A stretch of 64,000 nucleotides of DNA from Sedimenticola thiotaurini (lineage in GTDB: Bacteria > Pseudomonadota > Gammaproteobacteria > Chromatiales > Chromatiaceae): positions 620,001 through 684,000 of the forward strand of contig NZ_CP011412.1 of NCBI RefSeq assembly GCF_001007875.1. Reading direction: 5' to 3'. A program made the position numbers and the translations under genes. Shown here in pieces: positions 47,478-60,632 of the stretch. The notes below the pieces were generated by a model that searched no databases, was not told the DNA's origin, and worked only from the letters and a program-made list of their open reading frames with translations. How positions within the stretch are numbered: position 1 is the first letter of the stretch; every line of letters starts with the position of its first letter.

Positions 47478-48428
47478 TTAAATTAGCGGATCGCTTTCAG
47501 AACCTTCTGTATCGTCTGCGTAACAGGCCTCCATCATGTCGATAAATCGTTTGGCCTGAGGTGACAGGTACTTGCCGCGGCGCAGCACTATTCCGTAAGT
47601 GCGTTTGGGAAAATACTCATTCAGGGGGATCTTGATCAGTCGCTCTTCACCGGTCAGGCAGACATCGGTGACGATCGAGATACCCATGCCAAGTTCCACA
47701 TATTTTTTTATCACTTCCCAACCGCCGGCTTCCAGACCGGTTTTGAATTTCAGTTCATGCTGACGGAACACCAGATCAACCATCCGCCAGGTGGTCAGGC
47801 TGGGGGGAGGGAGTATCAGCCCGTAAGGGGCGATATCTTTCAGGGTAATGGTTTCGATCTCGGCCAGGGGGTGACCGATCGGAACAATCAATTCGGGAGA
47901 GTAGGTGACCAGCGGTTTATAGATAATGTCATCCGGTACTTCCAGCATGGAACCGACCGCGAAATCGGCCTCGTCGGCCCGCAGTCTGGAGAGTCCGTCC
48001 CGTCCGCCCGTCACGTTGTGGAGTTTGACCCGGATCTTGGGGTGCTGCTCCATGAACTGCTTAAGCGGTTCGGGTAGCACGTAAAGGATGGTTGATTCAC
48101 CGGCGGCGATGTTCAGATCACCCGACTCCAGCAAGCCCTGCTGGGCAATAAAGGTCTCCTGAAGTTTGTCCATTCCCTCAACCAGGGGCTGGGCCAGTTT
48201 GAACAGGATCTTACCTTCCGGGGTCAGGCGTATTTTTGGGCCCCGGCGTTCGAAAAGAACGGTTTCCAACTCACGCTCCAGGGCCTGAATCTGCAATGAA
48301 ACGGTCGGCTGACTGAGAAAAACCTTGTCGGCCGCCTCACTGATGCTGCCGGTTCTGGCAGCATGGCAAAAAGCGCGTAATTGCTTGAGTCTGTTCTGTT
48401 TATAGTAAATTGGCGCCGGTGATGCCAT
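47478..48428 (-). CDS. LysR-family transcriptional regulator
   Basis: 316 residues: N-terminal winged helix-turn-helix (about 13-72; LRAFCHAARTGSISEAADKVFLSQPTVSLQIQALE) and a C-terminal effector-binding domain with two Rossmann-like lobes (STILYVLPEPLKQF, GGWEVIKKYVELGMGISIVTDVCL). It is divergent from the rnfB/PFOR operon, the usual LysR arrangement, so it probably regulates that operon and itself. The effector is unknown. Confidence 0.92.
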   Translation of the reverse strand: MASPAPIYYKQNRLKQLRAFCHAARTGSISEAADKVFLSQPTVSLQIQALERELETVLFERRGPKIRLTPEGKILFKLAQPLVEGMDKLQETFIAQQGLLESGDLNIAAGESTILYVLPEPLKQFMEQHPKIRVKLHNVTGGRDGLSRLRADEADFAVGSMLEVPDDIIYKPLVTYSPELIVPIGHPLAEIETITLKDIAPYGLILPPPSLTTWRMVDLVFRQHELKFKTGLEAGGWEVIKKYVELGMGISIVTDVCLTGEERLIKIPLNEYFPKRTYGIVLRRGKYLSPQAKRFIDMMEACYADDTEGSESDPLI

Positions 48429-48459: not shown

Positions 48460-48481
48460 AATAGTAAGCATTGAAATAATT
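48460..48481. promoter_or_regulatory. LysR-type dyad motif, copy 1
   Basis: AATAGT-N10-ATAATT. It matches copy 2 at 17 of 22 positions, including the internal ATTGAAA. It is 32 bp upstream of the lysR start, fitting autoregulation. Confidence 0.5.
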
Positions 48482-48587
48482 GACCTGTCAAATACCACAA
48501 ATTCCACTACACTTTGCTGCGCTTGCGAAAAAATACGCATTGTATCTTAGGTAAATGGATTTAACTAACTGATACTAAACGGAAAAT

Positions 48588-48609
48588 AATAGTATAGATT
48601 GAAACTATT
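48588..48609. promoter_or_regulatory. LysR-type dyad motif, copy 2
   Basis: AATAGT-N10-ACTATT, perfect 6-bp arms, 49 bp upstream of rnfB. Fits a LysR site in the divergent region. Confidence 0.55.
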
Positions 48610-48657
48610 GCAATTATTTATGCGGCGATAAGCTGTAGTTTGTTTGAGGGCCGAACA

Positions 48658-49533
48658 ATGATCGATATTACCAGCCTAGCCTTATCCGTTGGTTTTATGG
48701 CTCTACTCGGTTCACTGCTTGCTTCTATTCTGGTGCTGGCTAACAAACGTCTGTTTGTCTATGAAGACCCCCGTATTGATGACGTGGAGGACCTGTTGCC
48801 CCGGGCCAATTGCGGCGCCTGTGGCAGCCCGGGTTGTCGACCTTTTGCGGAAGGCTTGATTGAAGGCACCTACGAGCCGGCCCAGTGCACCGTCAATTCC
48901 AAAGAGATTAATGAACAGATCGCCAATTATCTGGGTGTTGATCTGGGTACGCAAGTTAAACGGGTCGCCCGACTCGCCTGTGCCGGCGGCACCCATGTGG
49001 CCTATATTCGGGCCAGTTACGATGGTATGAGCTCCTGCCGTGCTGCAGCCCTTGTGGCCGGTGGTGGCAAGGGCTGTGCCTGGGGCTGTCTCGGTATGGG
49101 GGACTGCGCCGATGTCTGTGACTTTGACGCAATCAGCATGAACAAATATGGCCTGCCGATGGTGAACGAATCACTCTGTACCGCCTGCGGCGATTGTGTC
49201 GATATCTGTCCCAAGGATCTGTTTGAACTCCACTCCGTCAATGAACAGCTTTTTGTCGCCTGCCGGAATCTGGAGAAGGGTGAAGAGGCAGAGAATGAGT
49301 GCGAAGTCATCTGTACCGCCTGTGAGCGGTGTGCGGTGGATTCTCCGGAAGGGTTGATTGAGATTAAAAACAACCTGGCCGTCATTGATTACAGCAAAAA
49401 CGATCTGGCATCCCGGGTAGCGATTGAGCGCTGTCCCACGGGCGCTATTGTCTGGTTCGACAAGAAGGGCGGTTACCAAGTGGGTAAGGATGCCAAAAAG
49501 ATTATCCGCAAAGAGATGCTGCCCATTGGGTAG
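48658..49533 (+). CDS. rnfB: Ion-translocating ferredoxin:NAD oxidoreductase subunit B, long multi-cluster form
   Basis: 291 residues. One N-terminal transmembrane helix (about 5-28), the RnfB 4Fe-4S motif NCGACGSPGCRPFAEG..QC, then ferredoxin-type Cys sets CAWGCLGMGDCADVCDF and CTACGDCVDICPKDL, and two more Cys groups (VACRNL, CEVICTACERC, ERCPTGAI). E. coli RsxB has about 190 residues, so this is the longer type seen in anaerobes, with at least one extra cluster. It is the entry point for ferredoxin electrons. ATG 48658 follows GAGGG; it is separated from rnfC by two genes. Confidence 0.9.
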   Translation: MIDITSLALSVGFMALLGSLLASILVLANKRLFVYEDPRIDDVEDLLPRANCGACGSPGCRPFAEGLIEGTYEPAQCTVNSKEINEQIANYLGVDLGTQVKRVARLACAGGTHVAYIRASYDGMSSCRAAALVAGGGKGCAWGCLGMGDCADVCDFDAISMNKYGLPMVNESLCTACGDCVDICPKDLFELHSVNEQLFVACRNLEKGEEAENECEVICTACERCAVDSPEGLIEIKNNLAVIDYSKNDLASRVAIERCPTGAIVWFDKKGGYQVGKDAKKIIRKEMLPIG

Positions 49534-49600
49534 TTAGAGTTTTATCGGTTGGGTTGCCAACAATGCTGGTGAATCCAGGAATGTAGAAGAGGAAGTATCC

Positions 49601-52600
49601 ATGTTCGGAAAAAAAGAGCAAAAGCAGTTTAAGTATCCCGGAATCCGCATGGCAATGGATGGCAATACTGCCGTCATCATGTGCGAGCGGGAAGCATCTG
49701 ACGCTGCCGGTGCCTACCCGATTACCCCTTCCACCCAGATGGGCGAGTACTGGGCGGAGGAGGTGGCCAAGGGTCATGTCAACGTTTCCGGCAAGCCGCT
49801 GGTATTCGTAGAGCCTGAATCCGAACACGCCGCCGCCGCAGTGACAGCCGGTATGGCAATGACCGGTATGCGTGCCACTAACTTCTCCTCAGCGCAGGGC
49901 GTCGCCTTCATGCACGAGTCGCTCTATGCCGCAGTTGGCAAGCGTCTGCCCTATGTGTTGAATATCGGCACCCGGGCCATTACCAAGGCTTCACTCAACG
50001 TGCACTGTAGTCACGATGACTACCACTGTATCGACGATACCGGCTTTTTCCAGATTTTTGGTGCCAATGCCCAGGAAGCCGCGGACCTGAACCTGATCGG
50101 CCGCAAGATTGCCGAACTGAGTCTGACGCCCGCGGCAGTGGCCCAGGACGGCTTCCTCACCACCCACCTGATTGAACCCCTGATGGTCCCGGAGCGGGAA
50201 CTGATCGAGGAGTTCTGCGGGTCGCCGGATGACATCATTCCCTGTCCGACTCCGGCACAGAAAATGATCTATGGCGAGAAGCGTCGTCGTGTGCCGGAGA
50301 TCTGGGATGTGGACAATCCTATGTTGTCCGGTGCCGTACAGAACCAGGATGCCTATATGCAGGCGGTGGCTGCCCAGCGTCCTTACTTCTTTGACCACAT
50401 CTCCAGCCTGACTGACCAGGTGATGGATGAGTATTACGAACTGACCGGCCGGCGCTACAACCGGGTCAGTGAATACCGGATGGACGATGCGGACTACGTG
50501 ATCGTGGGGCAGGGCTCCATGATCATCCAGGCCCAGGCGGTGGCCGACTATCTGCGTGAAACCCGCAAACTCAAAGTGGGCGTGCTGAACGTCACCATGT
50601 ACCGTCCGTTCCCCGGTGACCTGATCGGCAAAGTGTTGAAAAAGCGCAAAGGCGTAGTGGTCCTGGAGCGTACCGACCAGCCGCTGGCGGAAGATCTGCC
50701 GCTGATCCGCGAGATCCGTTCATCGCTCACCAAGTGTATTGAGAACGGGGCTACCAGCGGTGATGCACCCTATCCGAAATACGCCTCTTACAAGGCGGGT
50801 GAGGCACCGGCTCTCTACTCCGGTTCCTACGGACTGGGATCTCGGGACCTGCAGCCGGAAGGGCTGATCGGTGCCGTCGAGAATATGCTGCCGAATGGCA
50901 AAAAACGTCGTTTCTTCTATCTGGGTGTGGATTTCGTGCGGGAAGCGGCCGATCCAAAAGCGGAGATCCGCCAGCAGGAGCTGCTGGAGGCCTATCCCCA
51001 TATCAGTGAAATGGCGATCCGGGGCAGTGAAAACCCCGACTTGCTGCCCAAGGAAGCGATCACCATGCGCATGCATTCGGTCGGTGGCTGGGGCGCCATC
51101 ACGACCGGCAAGAACCTGGCCATGACCCTGTATGATCTGCTGGGCTACGACATCCGGGCCAATCCCAAGTACGGTTCCGAAAAGAAGGGCCAGCCCACCA
51201 CCTACTATCTGTCTGCTGCGCCGGTACCCATCCGACTGAACTGTGAATATCACTATGTGGATGTGGTGCTGTCACCCGATCCCAACGTGTTCCAGCACTC
51301 CAATCCGCTGTACGGATTGAAAGAGGGCGGTTACTTCATTATCCAGAGCAACCTGGAGACCGAAGAAGAGGTGTGGGCGCAGATCCCGGTGATGTACCAG
51401 AAGTACATTGTGGATCACAACATCCATGTCTACTTTGTCGATGGATTCAAGATCGCCAAGGAGGAGGCTTCCAATCCGGAACTGCAGTTCCGTATGCAGG
51501 GTAACGCCTTCCAGGGTGCTTTCTTTGCCGCATCACCCCTGTTGCAGCGGGCCAACCTGACCGAGCAGGGACTGTTCGATGCTATCGAGACCCAGCTGCG
51601 GGAGAAATTCGGCGGCAAGGGCGAGCGCGTGGTAGCTGACAACCTGCGGGTGGTACGGCGTGGATTCGATGAGATCCGTGAGATCACCAACAAACCGGTG
51701 GGTCTGACCGAGCAGGATATCCGCAAACCGGCCAAGATTCCGGTTATGCTGCAGCAGCTGCCCGAGGGCGACGGTCATCTTTCCGATGTCCATCGCTTCT
51801 GGGAACAGACCGGTTCGTTCTACCTGAACGGCAAGGGCTCGGAGAATCTGGCCGATCCCTACATGGCCACCAGCCTGATCCCGGCGGCCACCGGTGTGTA
51901 TCGCGACATGACCCAGATCCGCTTCGACTACCCGAAGTTCATTACCGAGAACTGTACTGCCTGTGGTGATTGTTACACCGCCTGTCCGGATAGCGCGATA
52001 CCGGGCCTGGTCAACACCATCGGTGAGATTTTTAATACCGCCATCGAGCGTATCGAGAAGAGAGGTACGCCGACCCTCTACCTGCGGCGTGAAACCCGCA
52101 ATGTGGAGAAGAAACTGCGTGCCCTGATTGATGCTCAGGGAGAGGCAGCAGTGGTCTCCAAGCTGCTGGATCAGGCGGTACTCGAAGTGCTGGCCGAGTC
52201 CGAGCTGGATGAGCAGAAAAAGGCCGGCCTGGAGCGGGAGTTCGGCCTGTTCCTGGAATCCATCGGTGGTTTCGAATTCTCGGTCACCAAACCCTATTAC
52301 AGCAACCGGGAGAAGAAGAACAAAGGCTCTGGCGGCCTGTTCTCCATCACCGTCAACCCCTACACCTGTAAAGGCTGTATGGAGTGCGTAGACGTCTGTG
52401 ACGATGGAGCGCTGGTGGTTGAACTGCAGACCGAGGCCGCAGTCGAGAAACTGCGGAACGACTGGAAGTTCTGGATGGATCTGCCCACCACCAATCCTGA
52501 CTTTATCCGTATCGACGATCTGAATGAAAAGATCGGCGCACTGGAGACCCTGCTGCTGGACAAGACCAACTACCAGTCCATGGTTTCCGGCGACGGTGCC

Positions 52601-54529
52601 TGCCTCGGTTGTGGTGAGAAGACCGCCATCCACCTGTTCACCAGTACGGCGACTGCCCTGATGCAACCCCGGGTAAAGGCGCACCTGGCCGAGCTGGATG
52701 ACCTGATCAATCGCCTGGAGACCCATGTTCGTCTGAAATTGGCAGCCGGCATGGATCTCACCAATACGGCGGCGATCAACGAAGTGGTTGAGGAGAACCG
52801 GGATACGGACCTGACCCTGACCAATCTCTCTGCCACCCTGGCCGATGGCCAGGCGTCGGAGCCGGTCGATCCCAAGTGGCTGAAGTGGGTCACCCAGCTG
52901 CTGGAGAAACTGCGTCATCTGAAATGGCTCTATACTGATGGCAATACCAATCAGGGACGCGCCACCATGGGTATTATCAACGCCACCGGTTGTACCTCGG
53001 TGTGGGGATCGACTTTCCCGTTCAACCCCTATCCGTTCCCCTGGACCAGTCACCTGTTCCAGGACAGCCCGTCCGTAGCTATGGGTATCTTCGAGGGCCA
53101 CATGGCCAAGATGGCCGAGGGCTTCAAGGCGATCCGCCAGGCCAAGCTGGAACTGGAAGACAAGTATGATCCCGAGGTGCACGATAACTTCTTCACCTAC
53201 TTCGACTGGAAGTCCTTCAGTGATGAAGAGTGGCTGCTCTGCCCGCCGGTGGTCTCCATCGGTGGTGACGGCGCCATGTACGATATCGGTTTCCAGAACC
53301 TCTCCCGTGCGCTGGCTTCCGGCACGCCGATCAAGGTGTTGATCCTGGATACCCAGGTCTATTCCAACACCGGTGGCCAGTCCTGTACCTCCGGTTTTAT
53401 CGGCCAGGTGGCGGATATGGCACCCTACGGTAAGTCGTGGAAGGGCAAGACCGAGATCCGTAAGGAGATGGGCGTGATCGGCATGGCGCACCGCACCAGT
53501 TTTGTGTTGCAGAGCTCCCAGGCCAACATCACCCATCTGCTGGAGGGTTTCATTGATGGACTGAACAGCCGTCGTCCGGCCATGTTCAACATCTATACCA
53601 CCTGCCAGCCGGAGCACGGTGTGGCGGACGACGCGTCGGAGGCCCAGGCCAAGCTGGCACTGGAATCCCGCGCCTATCCGCTGTTCCGCTATGACCCGGA
53701 TGCCGGTGTGACCTTTGCTGAATGCTCCAGTGTGGAAGGCAACCCGGCGCTGGATGCGGACTGGCCCACTTACCAGCTCACCTATCAGGATGAGCACGGC
53801 AAGGAGTCCAAGCTGGAGCTGCCGATCACGTTTGCCGACTTCGCCTTCAGTGAGGGACGTTTCCGCAAGCATTTCCGCTCCGTGCCCCAGGATGCCTGGA
53901 ACGATGACATGGTGCCGCTGCACGAGTTCCTGGAGATGGATGAGGATGACCGGGATGGTCGCTACCCCTACATCTGGGCGGTGAACAACAAGCAGCGCCT
54001 GATACGGGTGCTGGTCTCCCAGGAGATCGTGCTCTCCTGTGAAGAGCGGCGCGATTTCTGGCATCAGCTGCGTGCCCTGGCCGGTGTGGGTGAAGCGGTG
54101 GACGAGATTGAAATCGCCAACCGCGCCAAGGCGGAGATGGCGCAGAAGCTCAGCGCCAGTCTGCTGGCCCTGGCCAACAATGGCGATGTCTCGGCTCTGA
54201 CCGATATGCCGGCTTCAAATGGTAACGGCAATGGTACAGCTGCTGCGGCAGCCGGGGGGAATGGTGCTGCACCGGCGGATTACGAGCCGGTCTGGATCGA
54301 AACTCCGGAGTGTACCGCCTGTGATGAGTGCACCGATATAGCGCCCAACGTGTTCAAGTACAACGATCAGAAGCTGGCGATTGTTGTCGATCCCAAGGGC
54401 GCTCCTTACAAGGACATCGTCAAGGCGGCAGAGAAGTGTACAGCGGGTTGTCTGCATCCTGGCACCCCCTGGAATCCCAACGAGAAAGATCTCGATAAAC
54501 TGGTCAAACGTGCGGCAAAGTACCAGTAA
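49601..54529 (+). CDS. nifJ: Pyruvate:ferredoxin (flavodoxin) oxidoreductase with C-terminal ferredoxin domain
   Basis: 1642 residues; typical homodimeric PFOR has about 1170-1200. Reversibly converts pyruvate plus CoA to acetyl-CoA, CO2 and reduced ferredoxin. Order: domain I (about 15-260; [17 protein letters not shown]), domain II (about 290-420; [14 protein letters not shown]), gamma domain (about 485-690; [17 protein letters not shown]), first 4Fe-4S motif [12 protein letters not shown] (about 783), a long insert, second motif [11 protein letters not shown] (about 921), then the TPP domain ([11 protein letters not shown] about 997, [17 protein letters not shown] about 1222, SNTGGQ). After about 1533 a Gly/Asn/Ala linker leads to an added ferredoxin-like domain ([15 protein letters not shown], then [10 protein letters not shown]). 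The true 2-oxoacid is not proven by sequence. Confidence 0.92.
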
Positions 54530-54555
54530 TACAACCATCAGAGGAGAGAGTGAAC

Positions 54556-55056
54556 ATGGCAACTGTAACCTTACAAGGAAACCCGGTTTCCACCAGCGGA
54601 GAGCTGCCGGCAGTTGGTAGCAAGGCCCCGGAGTTTTCCCTGGCCAACAAGGAGTTGGCGGATGTGGGGCTGGCGGATTTTGCCGGCAAAAAACGGCTGT
54701 TGAATATCGTGCCGAGCCTGGATACGCCAACCTGCGCCGTTTCCACCAAGAAGTTCAACGAGTCATTCGCCAGCCGCGATGACGCGGTGGCGATGGTGAT
54801 TTCGGCCGATCTGCCGTTCGCCCAGGGCCGTTTCTGTGAGACGGAGGGTCTGAAAAACGTGGTCACGCTGTCGATGATGCATGACCAGCAGTTTGCCACC
54901 GACTACGGTGTGCTGATTACCGATGGCCCACTGCGGGGTCTCACCTGTCGCGCCGTGGTGGTGATCGACGAAAACGGTACGGTCACCTATACCCAACTGG
55001 TGCCGGAGATCGGTGATGAGCCGGATTACGAGGCAGCTCTGGCCGCGTTGAAATAA
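54556..55056 (+). CDS. tpx: Thiol peroxidase Tpx
   Basis: 166-residue atypical 2-Cys peroxiredoxin. Peroxidatic Cys60 in [12 protein letters not shown], resolving Cys94 in GRFCETEGL, and the typical start [15 protein letters not shown] and [17 protein letters not shown] 54556 has GAGGAG nine bases upstream. It stands inside the PFOR/Rnf gene row, 26 bp after PFOR, and probably protects these oxygen-sensitive Fe-S proteins from peroxide. A hairpin follows it. Confidence 0.95.
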
Positions 55057-55084
55057 GTTTGTAGTAGTTAGCAGACAACAGGGC

Positions 55085-55116
55085 CCGGTCGCCCGGCCGT
55101 AGAGCCGGGTGACCGG
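55085..55116 (+). promoter_or_regulatory. Strong hairpin between tpx and rnfC
   Basis: CCGGTCGCCCGGC pairs with GCCGGGTGACCGG (13 bp with one G-U) around loop CGTAGA. No U tract; probably attenuates or protects the message between tpx and rnfC. Confidence 0.6.
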
Positions 55117-55144
55117 TCAGGTTGTCGAGAGTAGTGGAGAGAGA

Positions 55145-56500
55145 ATGGGTCTACTCAATCTATTCAGGCGTACCCCGACCTTCAGACATGGGGTACACCC
55201 CATGGAGCACAAGGAGCAGACGGCACACCTGGCGATCAGGCGCCTGCCATTTGCTCCCACGATCTATGTGCCGCTTGCCCAGCATATTGGCGCACCAGCG
55301 CTAGCGTTGGTGAAACCGGGGCAGGAGGTAGTACGTGGTGAACCAATCGCCGAGGCGGGCGGATTTGTCTCCGTGCCCATGCACGCCCCGGTGACCGGTA
55401 TCGTGCGCTCGGTGGACCATCTGGTGCCGACGGCGGCGGGTCCCAAGACACCGGCGATCGTGATCGACACCTACGAGGCATCGACCCAGGAAGTGTTGTA
55501 TGGCCGGGAGCAGGATCTGTCCACTCTGTCCCGGGAGGCGTTGATCGAGGCGGTCAAGGCCAGCGGTATGGTGGGCCTGGGCGGAGCGGCCTTTCCCAGT
55601 CATGTGAAACTGCTGCCGCCGGAAGGGAAGGTGATCGATACCCTGATTATCAACGGCTGCGAGTGTGAACCCTACCTGACCTGCGACCACCGGGTGATGC
55701 TGGAGCAGACCGATCGGCTGATCGCCGGTATCCGCACCATCATGCGGGCCACCGGGGCGAAACGGGCCATCATCGGGGTGGAAGACAACAAACTGGATGC
55801 GGTGCAGGCGATCCGGGAGAAACTGCCGGAAGATGGTGTGATCAGCTGCGAGGCGGTGGAAACCAAGTACCCGCAGGGCGCGGAGAAGATGCTGATCAGC
55901 AGTCTGCTGAAGCGGGAAGTGCCCTCCGGCGGACTGCCGGTGGATATCGGTGTGGCGGTTTATAACGTCGGCACACTGGCACAGTTGGGGGAATTGATTC
56001 CCCACAGTCAGGGCTTGATTGAGCGGGTGGTCACTGTATCGGGTCCCGGGGTTGGTAAACCGGGGAATTACCTGGTGCCGATCGGCACGCCCCTGAGTTT
56101 CCTGATGGATCAGGTGAAGTCCAGTTCGGATGCCAACGAAGTGATCGTCGGCGGGCCGATGATGGGGATGACCGTTGCTTCCCTTAGTGTCCCCATCACC
56201 AAGGGTGTCTCCGGGGTGGTGGTGTTCGAACAGGCCGCCGAGGATCAGCGGGAGCGACCGGTACACCCCTGTATCAAGTGTGGTGCCTGCCTGGATGCCT
56301 GTCCGATCAATCTCAATCCGTCCATGCTGGGCCAGCTGGCCAGCGTGCGTCACTATGAGACGATGGAATCCGAGTATCACCTCAACGACTGTTTTGAGTG
56401 CGGTTGTTGCAGCTATGTCTGTCCATCCAATATTCCGCTTACCCAGTATTTCCGTATCGCCAAGTCGGTGAATCGGGAGGCTCGGGCGGCGGCAGCCTGA
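55145..56500 (+). CDS. rnfC: Ion-translocating ferredoxin:NAD oxidoreductase subunit C
   Basis: 451 residues. NADH-side subunit of Rnf. Carries the lipoyl-like N-terminal domain (FRHGVHPMEHKE), the SLBB/NADH-FMN Rossmann region with GMVGLGGAAFPSHVKL and INGCECEPYLTCDHR, and two 4Fe-4S motifs near the end: CIKCGACLDACPINLNP and CFECGCCSYVCPSNIPL. ATG 55145 is preceded by GGAGAGAG; a longer start at 55109 lies over the hairpin and is unlikely. Confidence 0.95.
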   Translation: MGLLNLFRRTPTFRHGVHPMEHKEQTAHLAIRRLPFAPTIYVPLAQHIGAPALALVKPGQEVVRGEPIAEAGGFVSVPMHAPVTGIVRSVDHLVPTAAGPKTPAIVIDTYEASTQEVLYGREQDLSTLSREALIEAVKASGMVGLGGAAFPSHVKLLPPEGKVIDTLIINGCECEPYLTCDHRVMLEQTDRLIAGIRTIMRATGAKRAIIGVEDNKLDAVQAIREKLPEDGVISCEAVETKYPQGAEKMLISSLLKREVPSGGLPVDIGVAVYNVGTLAQLGELIPHSQGLIERVVTVSGPGVGKPGNYLVPIGTPLSFLMDQVKSSSDANEVIVGGPMMGMTVASLSVPITKGVSGVVVFEQAAEDQRERPVHPCIKCGACLDACPINLNPSMLGQLASVRHYETMESEYHLNDCFECGCCSYVCPSNIPLTQYFRIAKSVNREARAAAA

Positions 56501-56568
56501 AGCAAGGGAAGTTGGTCAACCCGGCCAGTGAGTAGTAAACGGGATCGGACGCCCCTGCAGAGTAGAGT

Positions 56569-57627
56569 ATGAGTAGAAAACAGAAAAAAGTTGTCGAGAT
56601 CCGAACTTCCCCCCATCTGAAGAAGGCCATCTCTGTCGAACAGATCATGCGTAACGTGGTGTATGCGTTGCTGCCGGTCTGTGGTTGGTCGGTGTATCAG
56701 TTTGGACTCAGTGCGCTGGTGCTGATTCTGGTGACGATCCTCTCCTGTGTACTGACCGAATCTCTGTTTTGCCGCCTCTCCGGCCGACCCAACAGCGTCG
56801 GTGATTTCAGTGTCATCATCACCGGCATGCTGCTGGCCCTGACGCTGCCGCCCGGCTTTCCCCTCTGGATGGCGGCGGTGGCCGGTTTCATGGCCATAGG
56901 CCTGGGTAAGGCGCTGTTTGGCGGGCTGGGCTACAACGTCATGAACCCGGCCCTGGTCGGACGAGCCTTTGTGCAGGCCGCGTTTCCGGTGGCTATCACC
57001 ACCTGGACACCCGGTTTTACGGAGGGTCGTTTCCTGGAATTCATCCCCTCCAGCCTGGCGCTGCCGTTCATGTCGCCGGTGGATACCGCTGACTGGGTTA
57101 AATCCCATGCCGTGGATGGCTTTACCGGTGCCACGCCCCTGGCGCTGCAGAAGTTCGAACACGTTACCACCAGTACCATGGATCTGCTGACCGGCAGCGT
57201 GTCCGGTTCCGCCGGGGAGGCTTCGGCACTGCTGATTTTTGTCTGCGGGCTCTACCTGGCCTTCCGCAAGATGATGGATTGGCGGATACCGGCCGCTGTA
57301 TTCCTGGGGGCCGCATTGATCTCCGGGCCATTACACCTCATGAATCCGGAGATCTATCCCTCCCCGCTGTTTGTGATCCTCTCCGGTGGTCTGATGCTGG
57401 GTGCCATGTTTATGGCGACCGATATGGTAATTTCGCCCATGACCCCTCGCGGAGTCTGGCTCTACGGTATTGTGATCGGAGTGCTGACGGTGATTATCCG
57501 GCAGTTTGGCGGACTCACCGAAGGGGTGATGTACGCCATCCTGGTGGCCAATGCGCTGTCGCCCTTGATCGCCTCGGTGACCCAGCCGCGTATCTATGGC
57601 GCAACCAAAAAGGGGGCTGAATCATGA
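56569..57627 (+). CDS. rnfD: Rnf complex subunit D
   Basis: 352 residues, NqrB/RnfD family membrane subunit with about nine helices. The covalent FMN site is DGFTGATPL, with the second Thr as attachment point. It opens with TSPHLKKAISVEQIMRNVVYALLP-type residues, which are typical. It overlaps rnfG by ATGA. Confidence 0.95.
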   Translation: MSRKQKKVVEIRTSPHLKKAISVEQIMRNVVYALLPVCGWSVYQFGLSALVLILVTILSCVLTESLFCRLSGRPNSVGDFSVIITGMLLALTLPPGFPLWMAAVAGFMAIGLGKALFGGLGYNVMNPALVGRAFVQAAFPVAITTWTPGFTEGRFLEFIPSSLALPFMSPVDTADWVKSHAVDGFTGATPLALQKFEHVTTSTMDLLTGSVSGSAGEASALLIFVCGLYLAFRKMMDWRIPAAVFLGAALISGPLHLMNPEIYPSPLFVILSGGLMLGAMFMATDMVISPMTPRGVWLYGIVIGVLTVIIRQFGGLTEGVMYAILVANALSPLIASVTQPRIYGATKKGAES

Positions 57628-58313
57628 GCAGCGCGGAACAGAGCCAGGTTCAGCCCCAGACCCCCAGCTTCGCCATGTTGCGGACCCTGGGCGGTATCGC
57701 CATGTTGTCCGGTCTGCTGGTGGTGCTGGTGTATCAGTTCACCCAGCCGATTATTGAGAATAACAAGCGTATCGCCATCGAACAGGCGGTATCCCGGGTG
57801 GTACCGGGGGTGGTGAACAAAAAGGATTTTATCCTCGGCCCCGATGGGCTGTTTGCCCCGGATACCCCGGGTGCGGTGGGTGAGACGATTTATGCAGCCT
57901 ACAACGCCGAGGGCAAACTGCAGGGTGTGGCGCTGGAAGCTGCCGCCACCGGTTATCAGGATGTGATACGTATCCTTTACGGTTATAACCAGGACTGCCA
58001 GTGCGTCACCGGGATTAAGGTGCTGAAGATGGCGGAGACGCCGGGGCTGGGTGACAAGATCGCCTTTGATCCGGAGTTTCTGAAAAACTTCGAGGCGCTG
58101 GATGCCCGATTGAACAGTCAGAAAAATGCCCTGGAGAATGCCATCGTGACAGTCAAGCATGGCGCCAAACGGGAGCAGTGGGAGATCGATGCCATTTCCG
58201 GTGCCACCATCTCCTCCAAGGCGATCGGACGCATGATCAATGACAGCGGACAACGCATGTTCCCATTGATCATCAAGCATCTGGACGAATTAAGAGCCGG
58301 TCAGGCGAATTGA
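57624..58313 (+). CDS. rnfG: Rnf complex subunit G
   Basis: 229 residues, NqrC/RnfG family: one N-terminal transmembrane helix (about 18-38) and a periplasmic flavin domain with the covalent FMN motif SGATISS, plus GYQDVIRILYGYN and KVLKMAETPGLGDKI. Coupled to rnfD and 10 bp before rnfE. An ApbE flavin transferase is needed for its FMN but is not in the window. Confidence 0.95.
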   Translation: MSSAEQSQVQPQTPSFAMLRTLGGIAMLSGLLVVLVYQFTQPIIENNKRIAIEQAVSRVVPGVVNKKDFILGPDGLFAPDTPGAVGETIYAAYNAEGKLQGVALEAAATGYQDVIRILYGYNQDCQCVTGIKVLKMAETPGLGDKIAFDPEFLKNFEALDARLNSQKNALENAIVTVKHGAKREQWEIDAISGATISSKAIGRMINDSGQRMFPLIIKHLDELRAGQAN

Positions 58314-58323
58314 GGTAGAAGCG

Positions 58324-58983
58324 ATGTCGTTACCCAATAAACAGGAGAAGGTGACGCTGGACACCTTCATGCGGGGTATCTGGGAAGAGAACCCGGTATT
58401 TGTCATGCTGCTGGGACTCTGCCCGGTACTGGCGGTAACCAACTCCACCATGAACGCCATTGCCATGGGATTGGCAACTCTGTTCGTGCTGGTGGCGTCC
58501 AGCACCCTGGTATCCCTGTTGCGCAAGGTGATTCCGAAACAGGTGCGAATCGCCACCTACATTGTCATTATTGCAACCTTTGTCACCATCGTGGACTACG
58601 TGATCCAGGCGATCAGCCTGGATCTCTACAATGCGCTGGGCGCCTTTATCCAGCTGATTGTTGCCAACTGCGTGATCCTGGGCCGGGCCGAGGCCTATGC
58701 CTCCAAGCAGAAAGTGGGGGCCTCGATTGTCAACGCCCTGGGCATGGGGACCGGTTTTACAATTGCACTGCTCTGCCTCGGTACCGTGCGCGAACTGCTG
58801 GGGGCCGGCACTATCCTGGGTGTACAGATTTTCAGCAGCAACTTTGAACCCTGGGTAGTGATGATCCTGCCCCCGGGCGGCTTCTTTGTGCTGGGTGGCT
58901 GGCTGTTGTTGTTTGACTATCTGAAACACCGCAAGGAACAGAAACTGCTGAATACCGAGGGGGCCGTTGCCAATGGATCCTAA
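58324..58983 (+). CDS. rnfE: Rnf complex subunit E
   Basis: 219 residues, six-helix membrane subunit of the NqrD/RnfE family, with FMRGIWEENPVFVMLLGLCPVLAVTNS at the start and the ANCVILGRAEAYA motif whose Cys helps hold the intramembrane iron-sulfur centre shared with RnfA. The stop overlaps rnfA by 11 bp. Confidence 0.95.
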   Translation: MSLPNKQEKVTLDTFMRGIWEENPVFVMLLGLCPVLAVTNSTMNAIAMGLATLFVLVASSTLVSLLRKVIPKQVRIATYIVIIATFVTIVDYVIQAISLDLYNALGAFIQLIVANCVILGRAEAYASKQKVGASIVNALGMGTGFTIALLCLGTVRELLGAGTILGVQIFSSNFEPWVVMILPPGGFFVLGGWLLLFDYLKHRKEQKLLNTEGAVANGS

Positions 58984-59563
58984 TTCACTCACTTTTATCT
59001 TTCTCAACGCGGCCCTGATCAACAACTTCGTGCTGGCGCTGTTTCTCGGGCTCTGTCCATTTCTCGGCGTATCGGCCAAGAAAGAGACCGCCTGGAACAT
59101 GGGTCTGGCCACCATGTTTGTGATGCTGGTCAGCTCCATCTCTGCCTACGGCATCAACTGGGTGCTGGTGAAGTTCGATATCGAGTTCCTGCGCCTGATC
59201 TGCTACATCGCGGTTATCGCATCGGCTGTGCAGCTAGTGGAGATGACGGTCAAAAAGTTCAGCCCCGAACTGTTCCGTGCCCTGGGTATTTTTCTGCCGC
59301 TGATCACCACCAACTGCGCCATTCTGGGACTGGCCCTGTTCCAGACCTTCCGGGATTACGACTTCTTCCAATCCCTGGCGTTCAGCACCGGCGCCGGAGT
59401 CGGCTTTACCATCGCCCTGATGCTGATGGCCGGTTTGCGTGAGAAACTGGAGCTGGCCAAGTTGCCGACCGCCAGCCAGGGGGCGGCCATGGGCCTGATG
59501 CTGGCGGGCCTGCTGTCCCTGGCGTTTATGGGATTCGCCGGGCTGGGAGGTTCCCATGCTTAA
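58973..59563 (+). CDS. rnfA: Rnf complex subunit A
   Basis: 196 residues, six-helix NqrE/RnfA family subunit, pseudo-symmetric partner of RnfE. LALFLGLCPFLGVS and the TTNCAILGLALF motif carry the conserved cysteines. ATG 58973 has AGGGGG upstream; a TTG at 58967 would add two residues. It is the last rnf gene, so the order is C-D-G-E-A, as in clostridia, and not the A-B-C-D-G-E order of enteric rsx. Confidence 0.95.
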   Translation: MDPNSLTFIFLNAALINNFVLALFLGLCPFLGVSAKKETAWNMGLATMFVMLVSSISAYGINWVLVKFDIEFLRLICYIAVIASAVQLVEMTVKKFSPELFRALGIFLPLITTNCAILGLALFQTFRDYDFFQSLAFSTGAGVGFTIALMLMAGLREKLELAKLPTASQGAAMGLMLAGLLSLAFMGFAGLGGSHA

Positions 59564-59735
59564 GGTGTTGTTGGCCAGTGGCGTCATCATGGGGGTGCTG
59601 GTAGGCTGGGTCATGGTGCAGAACCTGGCCCGGGAATTTGCCCGTCGGCATCCGGAGTTCGGTCCCTACCAGGAGAAACGGGGCTGCGGGGGGAACTGCT
59701 CCTGCAGCGGCGGCTCCAGTTGCCGCAACAAGTAG
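59556..59735 (+). CDS. NqrM-like small membrane protein with cysteine tail
   Basis: 59 residues, missed by length cut-offs. Its ATG lies inside the end of rnfA, so it is translationally coupled. One N-terminal helix (LKVLLASGVIMGVLVGWVMV), a short charged segment, then a C-terminal Cys cluster, GCGGNCSCSGGSSCRNK. One helix plus a CGG..CxC..C tail is the layout of NqrM (DUF539), the maturation factor of Na+-NQR that is needed for the iron centre between NqrD and NqrE, the homologues of RnfE and RnfA. A matching role for this Rnf complex is inference. Confidence 0.7.
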   Translation: MLKVLLASGVIMGVLVGWVMVQNLAREFARRHPEFGPYQEKRGCGGNCSCSGGSSCRNK

Positions 59736-59742
59736 CAGAGTG

Positions 59743-59761
59743 CCGGGCCTGCCAGGCCCGG
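59743..59761 (+). promoter_or_regulatory. GC hairpin between the NqrM-like and FNR-like genes
   Basis: CCGGGCCT / AGGCCCGG, 8 bp, three-base loop GCC. No U tract. Confidence 0.5.
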
Positions 59762-59777
59762 TGACGCGGGGGAGATT

Positions 59778-60632
59778 ATGGGTGTGACCGAACTGGGTGC
59801 AACGGCGGTGGCGGAAGTGGTTGAGAACCGGCGTATCACCCCGGAAAAGACCGACGAGGTTCGGCACATTGTCCTGCGGGTGGATGAGCCTTCGTTCCGC
59901 TACCGGGAAGGCCAGTCGATCGGGGTGGTGGTACCGGGTCCGCACGCCTTCGGCAACAAGTACCACATGCGGCGTTACTCCATCGCCAATGATCGCAGTC
60001 ACTCCGATGAAGCAGGAGTGGAGTTTTCCATCCTGGTTCGGCGCTGCTTCTATATCGACCCGCTGAATGGCGAACGCTATCCCGGCATCGCCTCCAACTA
60101 TCTCTGCGATGCCCCGGTCGGGAAGAGCATCTCGGTTACCGGTCCCTACAAAAGCCCCTTTATCATCCCGACCAACAACCAAAGTAATCTGGTGATGATC
60201 GGCGTGGGCACCGGTATCGCGCCGTTTCGGGCCTTTATTCAGCATCTCTATGGAGAACAGGGTGGCTGGAGCGGCCAGGTACGGCTGTTTTATGGCGCCC
60301 GTACCGGTATGGATATGCTCTACATGAATGATCACAACAGTGATCTGAAAGAGTATTTTCAGGAAGAGACCTTCATGGCCTACAACGCACTGGCCAATCG
60401 ACCTTTGATGAGCGCTACCGAGGCACTGCAACAGTCACTCGACTCCCATGTGGAGGAGGCGTTGTCGCTGATCAGCCAGCCCCAGACCTATGTGTGCGTG
60501 GCCGGGTTGAGCAAAGTAGAGCAGGCGATGGACAGGGTATTGGCGGAAGCGATGGGTTCCGATCAGGAGTGGGCCGCTCTTAAGGGCCAACTGGTCTCCC
60601 AGGGACGCTGGTCCCAGTTGCTGTACAGCTGA
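59778..60632 (+). CDS. Ferredoxin-NADP reductase-type FAD oxidoreductase
   Basis: 284 residues, plant-type FNR fold. FAD site RRYSIAND (about 70), NAD(P) site GVGTGIAPFRAFIQ (about 140), then YVCVAGLSKVEQAMD and a C-terminal aromatic residue next to the end (LLYS). Unlike NqrF it has no 2Fe-2S domain, so it must take electrons from a separate ferredoxin or from the PFOR-tethered one. GGGGGAG precedes the ATG. It ends the PFOR/Rnf gene row and would let reduced ferredoxin exchange with NAD(P)H without the membrane complex. Confidence 0.88.
   Translation: MGVTELGATAVAEVVENRRITPEKTDEVRHIVLRVDEPSFRYREGQSIGVVVPGPHAFGNKYHMRRYSIANDRSHSDEAGVEFSILVRRCFYIDPLNGERYPGIASNYLCDAPVGKSISVTGPYKSPFIIPTNNQSNLVMIGVGTGIAPFRAFIQHLYGEQGGWSGQVRLFYGARTGMDMLYMNDHNSDLKEYFQEETFMAYNALANRPLMSATEALQQSLDSHVEEALSLISQPQTYVCVAGLSKVEQAMDRVLAEAMGSDQEWAALKGQLVSQGRWSQLLYS

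Follow-up and report, generated by a model that had tools for sequence, protein, structure and literature searches.

The genes rnfB, PFOR and rnfCDGEA of the sulfur-oxidising marsh bacterium Sedimenticola thiotaurini SIP-G1 very probably form one functional module, in which a giant 2-oxoacid:ferredoxin oxidoreductase (PFOR) is encoded between rnfB and the other five genes of an Rnf complex. The genes lie in a 64,000-nucleotide stretch of contig NZ_CP011412.1 (positions 620,001 to 684,000; hereafter the window, whose numbering we use). Open reading frames and profile searches place on its + strand, in this order, rnfB, PFOR, tpx, rnfC-D-G-E-A, a 59-residue microprotein and an FNR-type reductase, with intergenic gaps of 10-68 bp and overlaps at rnfD/G, rnfE/A and rnfA/microprotein. 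This is the row of genes that the original prediction had named; all are present, and the conservation counts given below argue against a chance arrangement. Our favoured reading of the sequence, which we hold with some reserve, is that Rnf would use the ion gradient to drive PFOR as a pyruvate synthase via a ferredoxin tethered to PFOR itself. Neither this tethered ferredoxin nor the link to phosphoenolpyruvate (PEP) synthase described below was mentioned in the original prediction.

Conservation of the core and its Rnf lineage

Relatives of the PFOR were identified by scanning one genome per species. Of the 418 obtained, the best 80 entered the analysis, so the conservation counts apply to close relatives of this PFOR. 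The denominators differ between genes: a locus interrupted by a contig end within the row does not count for the gene concerned. We found rnfB directly upstream of PFOR in 73/73 loci with flank, rnfC downstream of PFOR in 66/66, and rnfD, G, E and A retained in 57/57. The complete core rnfB-PFOR-rnfCDGEA was present in all 55 loci with both flanks, and the adjacency is thus conserved and not a peculiarity of this strain. The accessory genes were distributed differently: tpx stood between PFOR and rnfC in 7/64 loci, all 7 labelled Sedimenticola, a homologue of the divergent LysR regulator was present in 26/62 loci, and an FNR homologue lay behind the row in 17/57. The tpx, FNR and LysR genes are not part of the core, and since the FNR homologue is found in only 17/57 loci, any part it plays is lineage-specific.

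The row was found in the Gammaproteobacteria Sedimenticola, Thiodiazotropha, Thiothrix, Ectothiorhodospira, Thiorhodospira and the Solemya velum symbiont, and in the Betaproteobacteria Rhodocyclaceae, Gallionella, Sulfuritalea and Rhodoferax antarcticus. Isolates are represented among the carriers by Sedimenticola, Thiothrix caldifontis, Ectothiorhodospira and Rhodoferax antarcticus; a few other carriers are bins that bear the label of Alphaproteobacteria or of another phylum, possibly owing to misbinning. Within the GTDB family, PFOR at ≥60% identity was found in 56/112 genomes. A long RnfB of the same class (≥61% identity) was encoded in 53 of these 56 genomes, at most 643 bp from PFOR, and in 0 of the 56 genomes lacking PFOR. 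Two of the three PFOR genomes without it (G014, G064) have PFOR copies that begin at the contig start, and the third copy (G072) stops at residue 300, where its contig presumably ends as well. A long RnfB at 33% identity was seen in a genome without a giant PFOR of this class (G032:C1:241829-242647). Across the phylum PFOR was rare, with matches at E ≤ 1e-250 in 3/398 genomes including its own; the other two belong to other families of the class and have the same core order without tpx. The partners of more distant giants (~30% and ~38% identity) are partly different. The expectation that a PFOR-Rnf link is uncommon in a gammaproteobacterium therefore holds across the phylum (3/398) but not within the organism's own family (56/112).

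The NCBIfam subfamily cut-offs were passed by RnfA, B, C, D and E, and RnfG was recognised through FMN_bind, which completes the six Rnf subunits; the RnfG translation contains an SGAT motif, presumably the flavin site. In phmmer searches RnfB scored 181 bits to 9eri_B, 157 to 7zc6_B and 55 to 8ahx_B, structures that we take to be Rnf of Acetobacterium woodii, Rnf of Clostridium tetanomorphum and Azotobacter Rnf1, respectively. The Acetobacterium/Clostridium complexes share with this row the six subunits and a long multi-cluster RnfB, whereas the row described here has the order B-PFOR-CDGEA plus a Cys-rich microprotein, occurs in Proteobacteria and is linked to a single enzyme. Canonical proteobacterial Rnf/Rsx and Azotobacter Rnf1 have C, D, G, E and A subunits homologous to those of the row but a short RnfB, and the other RnfC copies of the S. 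thiotaurini genome fall outside the row's clade. In a tree of 74 RnfC rows, the 68 PFOR-linked rows grouped together (99/98 support), apart from a second group of three rows from a related system and a third made up of the genome's three other copies, with a long-branch warning that applies above all to this last group and with a root used for drawing only. The completeness of the core in 55/55 loci and the separation of its RnfC lineage from the other three strongly support the earlier proposal of one device for rnfB-PFOR-rnfCDGEA; its extension to FNR (17/57) and a LysR switch (26/62) does not hold for the row as a whole.

The three other rnf clusters of the genome (L119-L121, on C1) lie at 1.77, 3.54 and 3.59 Mb, the last ~20 kb from nifH. 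We also observed an RnfC-like protein, which we take to resemble PduS, in a locus that looks like a microcompartment type and is perhaps the published ethanolamine pathway (L122, G000:C1:704000-716000). Allochromatium vinosum has three rnf clusters, and the role of multiple clusters is called entirely unclear in the part of that study available to us (PMC3368242); likewise, the available part of a study of the Riftia symbiont describes the direction of its Rnf as unknown (PMC11636981).

The giant PFOR and its C-terminal ferredoxin domain

The PFOR contains POR_N, PFOR core II, POR gamma and thiamine pyrophosphate (TPP)-binding domains, all above their Pfam cut-offs. Its best PDB matches are PFORs, both by sequence and, for the C-terminal half, by fold in a loose superposition. 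In an alignment of 104 rows, which holds some contigs twice (once per genome collection), the cysteines C785/788/791/795, C923/926/929/933 and C1001/1004/1131/1335 were present in 100 rows; by position, we take them to bind the canonical three [4Fe-4S] clusters. The NifJ enzymes of Desulfovibrio africanus (1b0p) and Moorella thermoacetica (6cin) resemble the giant PFOR in domain order, TPP and Fe-S parts and an aligned YPITPS motif, but they comprise 1171-1232 residues versus 1642 here; the giant has extra stretches between its Fe-S and TPP parts and an extra C-terminal ferredoxin on a linker.

This low-complexity linker begins after about residue 1525; across 103 rows, a number of which are duplicates, it contains 27% Ala and 19% Gly and varies in length from 16 to 66 residues, with a median of 37. 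It is followed by a domain of ~80 residues that belongs to Pfam Fer4_13 and matches Desulfovibrio ferredoxin I (1dax/1fxr) in phmmer over residues 1565-1619 (E 2.6e-5). The four cysteines of this tail were invariant in 35/35 selected rows, chosen from the 77/80 loci with a C-terminal part of normal length (split copies such as L059 were left out), and were present in 99-100 of the 104 rows. In an AlphaFold2 model of residues 780-1642, which is of middling quality (mean predicted local distance difference test score, pLDDT, 73.3; other four models 57.9-69.2), block means were 24-46 in the linker and 73-91 in the last 80 residues, and pLDDT fell below 50 at model residues 747-780, which correspond to the linker. 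Foldseek superposed the tail on 1fxr over 58 columns (root-mean-square deviation, rmsd, 1.2 Å; TMt 0.82; 31% identity; E 0.057) and placed what remained of the model on PFORs, the superposition on whole-length PFORs being loose (TMq mostly 0.33-0.38, rmsd 8.5-16). From the Fer4_13 and ferredoxin I matches, the disordered linker and the confident ferredoxin-fold tail, we conclude that this PFOR probably carries its own ferredoxin on a flexible arm. Pyruvate:NADP+ oxidoreductase (PNO) of Euglena and Cryptosporidium likewise joins a PFOR and its electron acceptor in one protein, but there the acceptor is a cytochrome-P450-reductase-like flavoprotein and in the row's PFOR a ferredoxin.

Two loci have the tail and body of PFOR, and two halves of rnfB, in separate frames or apparently split (L133:10306-15881, from a member of the family, and the Solemya symbiont copy L059:9337-14912); these splits may reflect error, decay or a separate ferredoxin gene. 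The S. thiotaurini genome also encodes a second, ordinary single-chain PFOR, a 1203-residue frame at 3.33 Mb.

The genes could be neighbours by inheritance or regulation only, with Rnf and PFOR sharing the general ferredoxin pool and the tail being an ordinary extra cluster. Adjacency alone is no proof of channelling, contact between the partners is putative, and the genome contains other Rnf clusters and another PFOR. Against this explanation stand the near-strict one-to-one co-occurrence of PFOR and RnfB, the separate RnfC clade, the ferredoxin-fold tail on its flexible linker, and the occurrence of a comparable C-terminus on a different subunit of a related row, and we therefore consider it improbable. 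Physical channelling of electrons through the ferredoxin arm is a further hypothesis, which we regard as rather doubtful.

Direction of electron flow

In the mechanism that we propose for the module, NADH would enter at RnfC, and Rnf would spend a Na+ or H+ gradient to raise electrons to ferredoxin potential. The electrons would pass from RnfB to the [4Fe-4S] ferredoxin on the C-terminal arm of PFOR, by a putative route with a putative docking on RnfB, and from the arm through the PFOR clusters to TPP, where acetyl-CoA and CO2 would give pyruvate. The pyruvate would then be drawn off to PEP by PEP synthase, whose gene adjoins the row in many relatives, and in Sedimenticola the module may serve regrowth from acetate or from stored polyhydroxyalkanoate (PHA).

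The genes behind the row bear on this direction. Clustering of flanking frames by length with a codon-usage filter, checked by tblastn, identified ppsA (PEP synthase) immediately behind the row and in the same orientation in 16/59 loci, across Gamma- and Betaproteobacteria, and ppsR (PEP synthase regulator) behind the row in 11/59, 10 of these with ppsA. Elsewhere in the flanking sequence covered for the 59 loci ppsA was found in none and ppsR in one. A further locus, L132, has the two genes on opposite sides, with ppsR on the far side of lysR and ppsA behind the row. One ppsA product tested against TIGR01418 scored 1182 bits (cut-off 740), and the PpsR tested scored 348.8 versus 350 in one model and 276.1 versus 225 in another. 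FNR lay behind the row in 18/59 loci, by a slightly wider rule than the 17/57 count, and never together with ppsA. A ppsA-like frame was also seen behind the row in L094, a locus that ends too soon and was left out of the count. PEP synthase uses pyruvate for gluconeogenesis, and these neighbours therefore argue for pyruvate synthesis.

Pyruvate oxidation by PFOR and electron transfer from ferredoxin to NAD+ by Rnf are the downhill direction of both enzymes, and the Rnf of Acetobacterium and clostridia runs from ferredoxin to NADH. The module might accordingly run oxidatively, with PFOR splitting pyruvate and the tethered ferredoxin feeding Rnf for NADH formation and ion pumping, as an extra coupling site in anaerobic or hypoxic catabolism of glycogen, lactate or alanine. 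The RnfB of the row is of the Acetobacterium/clostridial type, an FNR, where present, could carry surplus ferredoxin electrons to NADPH, and an oxidative tricarboxylic acid cycle is a possible role for the related row of 2-oxoacid oxidoreductase and Rnf genes. However, the ppsA and ppsR genes beside the row fit pyruvate supply and not its removal, and pyruvate dehydrogenase (PDH; aceE) was encoded in 6/6 PFOR genomes looked at. We consider oxidative operation unlikely and, from these gene contexts, lean towards the reductive direction, which may reverse.

Several observations weigh against pyruvate synthesis by the module. Pyruvate is a putative substrate of PFOR, since the enzyme does not reach the cut-off of the NifJ equivalog TIGR02176 (403 versus 911 bits). 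Neither FNR nor ppsA/ppsR was found in 24/59 loci or in the further locus L131, and the 16 ppsA loci are not independent, with five from Thiodiazotropha and three mutually close (L042, L043, L047). The S. thiotaurini row itself is followed by FNR and not by ppsA, which lies ~1 Mb away. The genome encodes two aceE (PDH) and one isocitrate lyase, so acetate could be used without PFOR, and in the family isocitrate lyase was found in 29/56 PFOR genomes versus 14/56 without (p 0.006, kinship and genome size ignored). As to the earlier alternative of an ion-driven pyruvate synthase or a route of electron disposal, the ppsA neighbours in relatives make the synthase the more probable, in a genome that also encodes PDH and isocitrate lyase. 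The idea that PFOR replaces the glyoxylate shunt was also considered and is unsupported, isocitrate lyase being commoner in PFOR genomes.

A link with carbon storage is consistent with the family genomes: a match to the PHA synthase family was present in 44/56 PFOR genomes versus 21/56 without (p 1.9e-5, kinship and genome size ignored). This count takes any match at E ≤ 0.001, and only 14/112 genomes exceed the PHA synthase I cut-off. Published physiology touches on pyruvate synthesis from storage compounds. When organic substrates are in excess, acetate in particular, SIP-G1 builds up PHA (PMC4472907). In Kentron symbionts a PFOR, which may or may not correspond to the row's giant, is highly expressed, and in the part of the study available its authors read it as a pyruvate synthase during PHA use (PMC6593406).

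Nitrogenase offers another possible outlet for electrons, as in the known function of NifJ and Rnf. Rnf and NifJ are both known nitrogenase feeders. SIP-G1 has nif genes (PMC4472907), but nifH showed no association with PFOR in the 112 family genomes (22/56 versus 24/56, p 0.85, kinship and genome size ignored), and of the three other genomes of the genus, two (G003, G061) had PFOR but no nifH over the cut-off and one (G095) had both. A different Rnf cluster, moreover, is the one near nifH. Nitrogen fixation as the main function was rejected on the nifH counts, and supply of nitrogenase by this row appears highly improbable.

Features of the row, related rows and significance

The features are collected below. 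The lysR gene falls outside the interval of the original prediction (48460-60632).

Features of the PFOR-Rnf row and its upstream region, in window coordinates
Feature	Coordinates	Strand	Evidence
lysR, LysR-type regulator, candidate switch of the row	47478-48428	-	HTH_1 and LysR_substrate domains; homologue divergent in relatives
Candidate operator box ATTGAAATAATTG, lysR-rnfB intergenic, conserved	48470-48482	+	Recurrent 8-mer
rnfB, long Acetobacterium/Clostridium type	48640-49533 (ATG at 48658 likely)	+	phmmer; position upstream of PFOR
Giant single-chain PFOR, 1642 residues	49601-54529	+	POR_N, PFOR_II, POR, TPP_enzyme_C; Fer4 matches
PFOR linker, predicted disordered, ~residues 1526-1559	54176-54277	+	Composition, pLDDT
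PFOR tethered single [4Fe-4S] ferredoxin domain, residues 1560-1642	54278-54526	+	Fer4_13, phmmer, Cys conservation, Foldseek
tpx, thiol peroxidase, Sedimenticola-type addition	54550-55056	+	PRK00522, 238.5 bits (cut-off 123)
rnfC	55109-56500	+	TIGR01945, 504.9 bits (245.95); separate clade
rnfD	56569-57627	+	TIGR01946, 303.4 bits (207.05)
rnfG	57624-58313	+	TIGR01947, 94.6 bits, narrowly below cut-off 102; FMN_bind, 61 bits (22)
rnfE	58324-58983	+	TIGR01948, 238.8 bits (213.4)
rnfA	58967-59563	+	TIGR01943, 234.6 bits (229.3)
59-residue microprotein, NqrM-like in architecture only	59556-59735	+	Hydrophobic N-terminus, Cys-rich tail; conserved in relatives
Plant-type FNR/PetH-like reductase	59778-60632	+	Best PDB match 2b5o_A, ferredoxin-NADP reductase, E 3.6e-38

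The 28 lysR-rnfB intergenic regions were reduced to 21 by dropping 7 near-copies. The 8-mer ATTGAAAT occurred in 14 of the 21, with the window copy at 48470, versus a mean of 4.1 and a maximum of 6 for the best 8-mer in 100 shuffles, a recurrence that real relatedness of the regions may inflate. We propose the box ATTGAAATAATTG as a candidate operator and putative LysR site; none of the T-N11-A dyads typical of LysR was consistent across these regions. A consensus promoter scan gave 4 promoter-like sites versus 5.5 expected, which is the chance level, and terminator-like sites numbered 15 versus 9.9 ± 2.9 expected on both strands; these scans therefore leave the transcript ends uncertain.

The microprotein was retained in 51/57 loci. 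In a 56-row alignment it is short, with a hydrophobic N-terminus (by eye) and a conserved Cys tail (C44 and C56 in 56/56 rows, C50 in 54/56), and it is encoded beside the RnfA/NqrE-type subunit. NqrM is likewise a short protein with a hydrophobic N-terminus and a Cys tail. Because the microprotein had no Pfam match at E ≤ 1, including to the NqrM profile (DUF539), its earlier description as NqrM-like stands for the architecture and not for family membership, and we rejected filing it as NqrM. It may possibly be an Fe-S assembly helper for RnfA/RnfE. A review of RNF and NQR ties NqrM to NQR, and the word PFOR is absent from the part available (PMC12174285). The tpx product may provide peroxide protection. 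The reductase is of the FNR class by its domains (NAD_binding_1, 41.4 bits versus 22; FAD_binding_6 at its cut-off, 21.1) and its closest solved relatives, and it scored below the curated PetH (145.6-148.8 versus 600-635 bits) and BoxA (140.2 versus 459.2) cut-offs.

Related rows were found in other genomes. In one (L126, 1275-16458) the order is korA-korB-[850 residues]-rnfB-[1575-residue giant, ~30% identity]-rnfC-D-G-E-A. In another genome (L127, 1640-15263; the stretch taken does not include rnfC-A), korA, korB, an 832-residue gene, rnfB and a 1516-residue giant adjoin both succinate-CoA ligase subunits (sucCD), and on this ground 2-oxoglutarate is probably the substrate of the related oxidoreductase. 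In this related system the korA product scored 491.8 against the alpha-subunit model of 2-oxoacid:acceptor oxidoreductase (cut-off 482.75) and korB 230 against the beta-subunit model (261.9), one over and one under. By their C-termini, the ferredoxin-like tail of these rows is on the TPP-type partner of 832-869 residues and not on the giant. A third giant (L124:2821-10676; ~38% identity, 1668-residue frame) lies beside a 989-residue GltD/dihydroorotate-dehydrogenase-B-like fusion, which we take to resemble ferredoxin:NADP transhydrogenase and which suggests a PFOR-transhydrogenase pair.

In tubeworm symbionts, genes of the reductive tricarboxylic acid cycle are clustered with Hdr-Flx, pntAB and Rnf (PMC11636981, PMC6315080). 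As far as the available parts of these studies describe them, those clusters resemble the present row in that a 2-oxoacid carboxylase of sulfur oxidisers is proposed to receive electrons by an ion-linked or bifurcation-linked route, and differ in combining korABCD with ATP citrate lyase versus a giant PFOR with tethered ferredoxin and acetogen-type RnfB here. A literature search of partially available open-licence full texts returned no description of the PFOR-Rnf row as a system or of the tethered ferredoxin, and the available parts of PMC6315080, PMC4853749, PMC6704655, PMC12383625 and PMC9796809 do not mention the row. The parts are known, and the combination appears to be new.

How ferredoxin is supplied for reductive carboxylation without photosystem I or electron bifurcation is a standing question. 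The row suggests a way to run ferredoxin-level carboxylation on an ion gradient, and, being conserved, present in isolates and equipped with its own ferredoxin, it offers one defined, testable enzyme-pump pair. We tentatively extend this to a membrane-energised carboxylase, a picture that we think unlikely, in which PFOR would be a soluble part of an Rnf supercomplex, the arm would swing from the PFOR clusters to RnfB and back, and the gradient would directly drive CO2 onto acetyl-CoA, with a sister machine likewise converting succinyl-CoA to 2-oxoglutarate. If this were true, Calvin-cycle sulfur oxidisers would hold a pair of gradient-powered reductive carboxylases.

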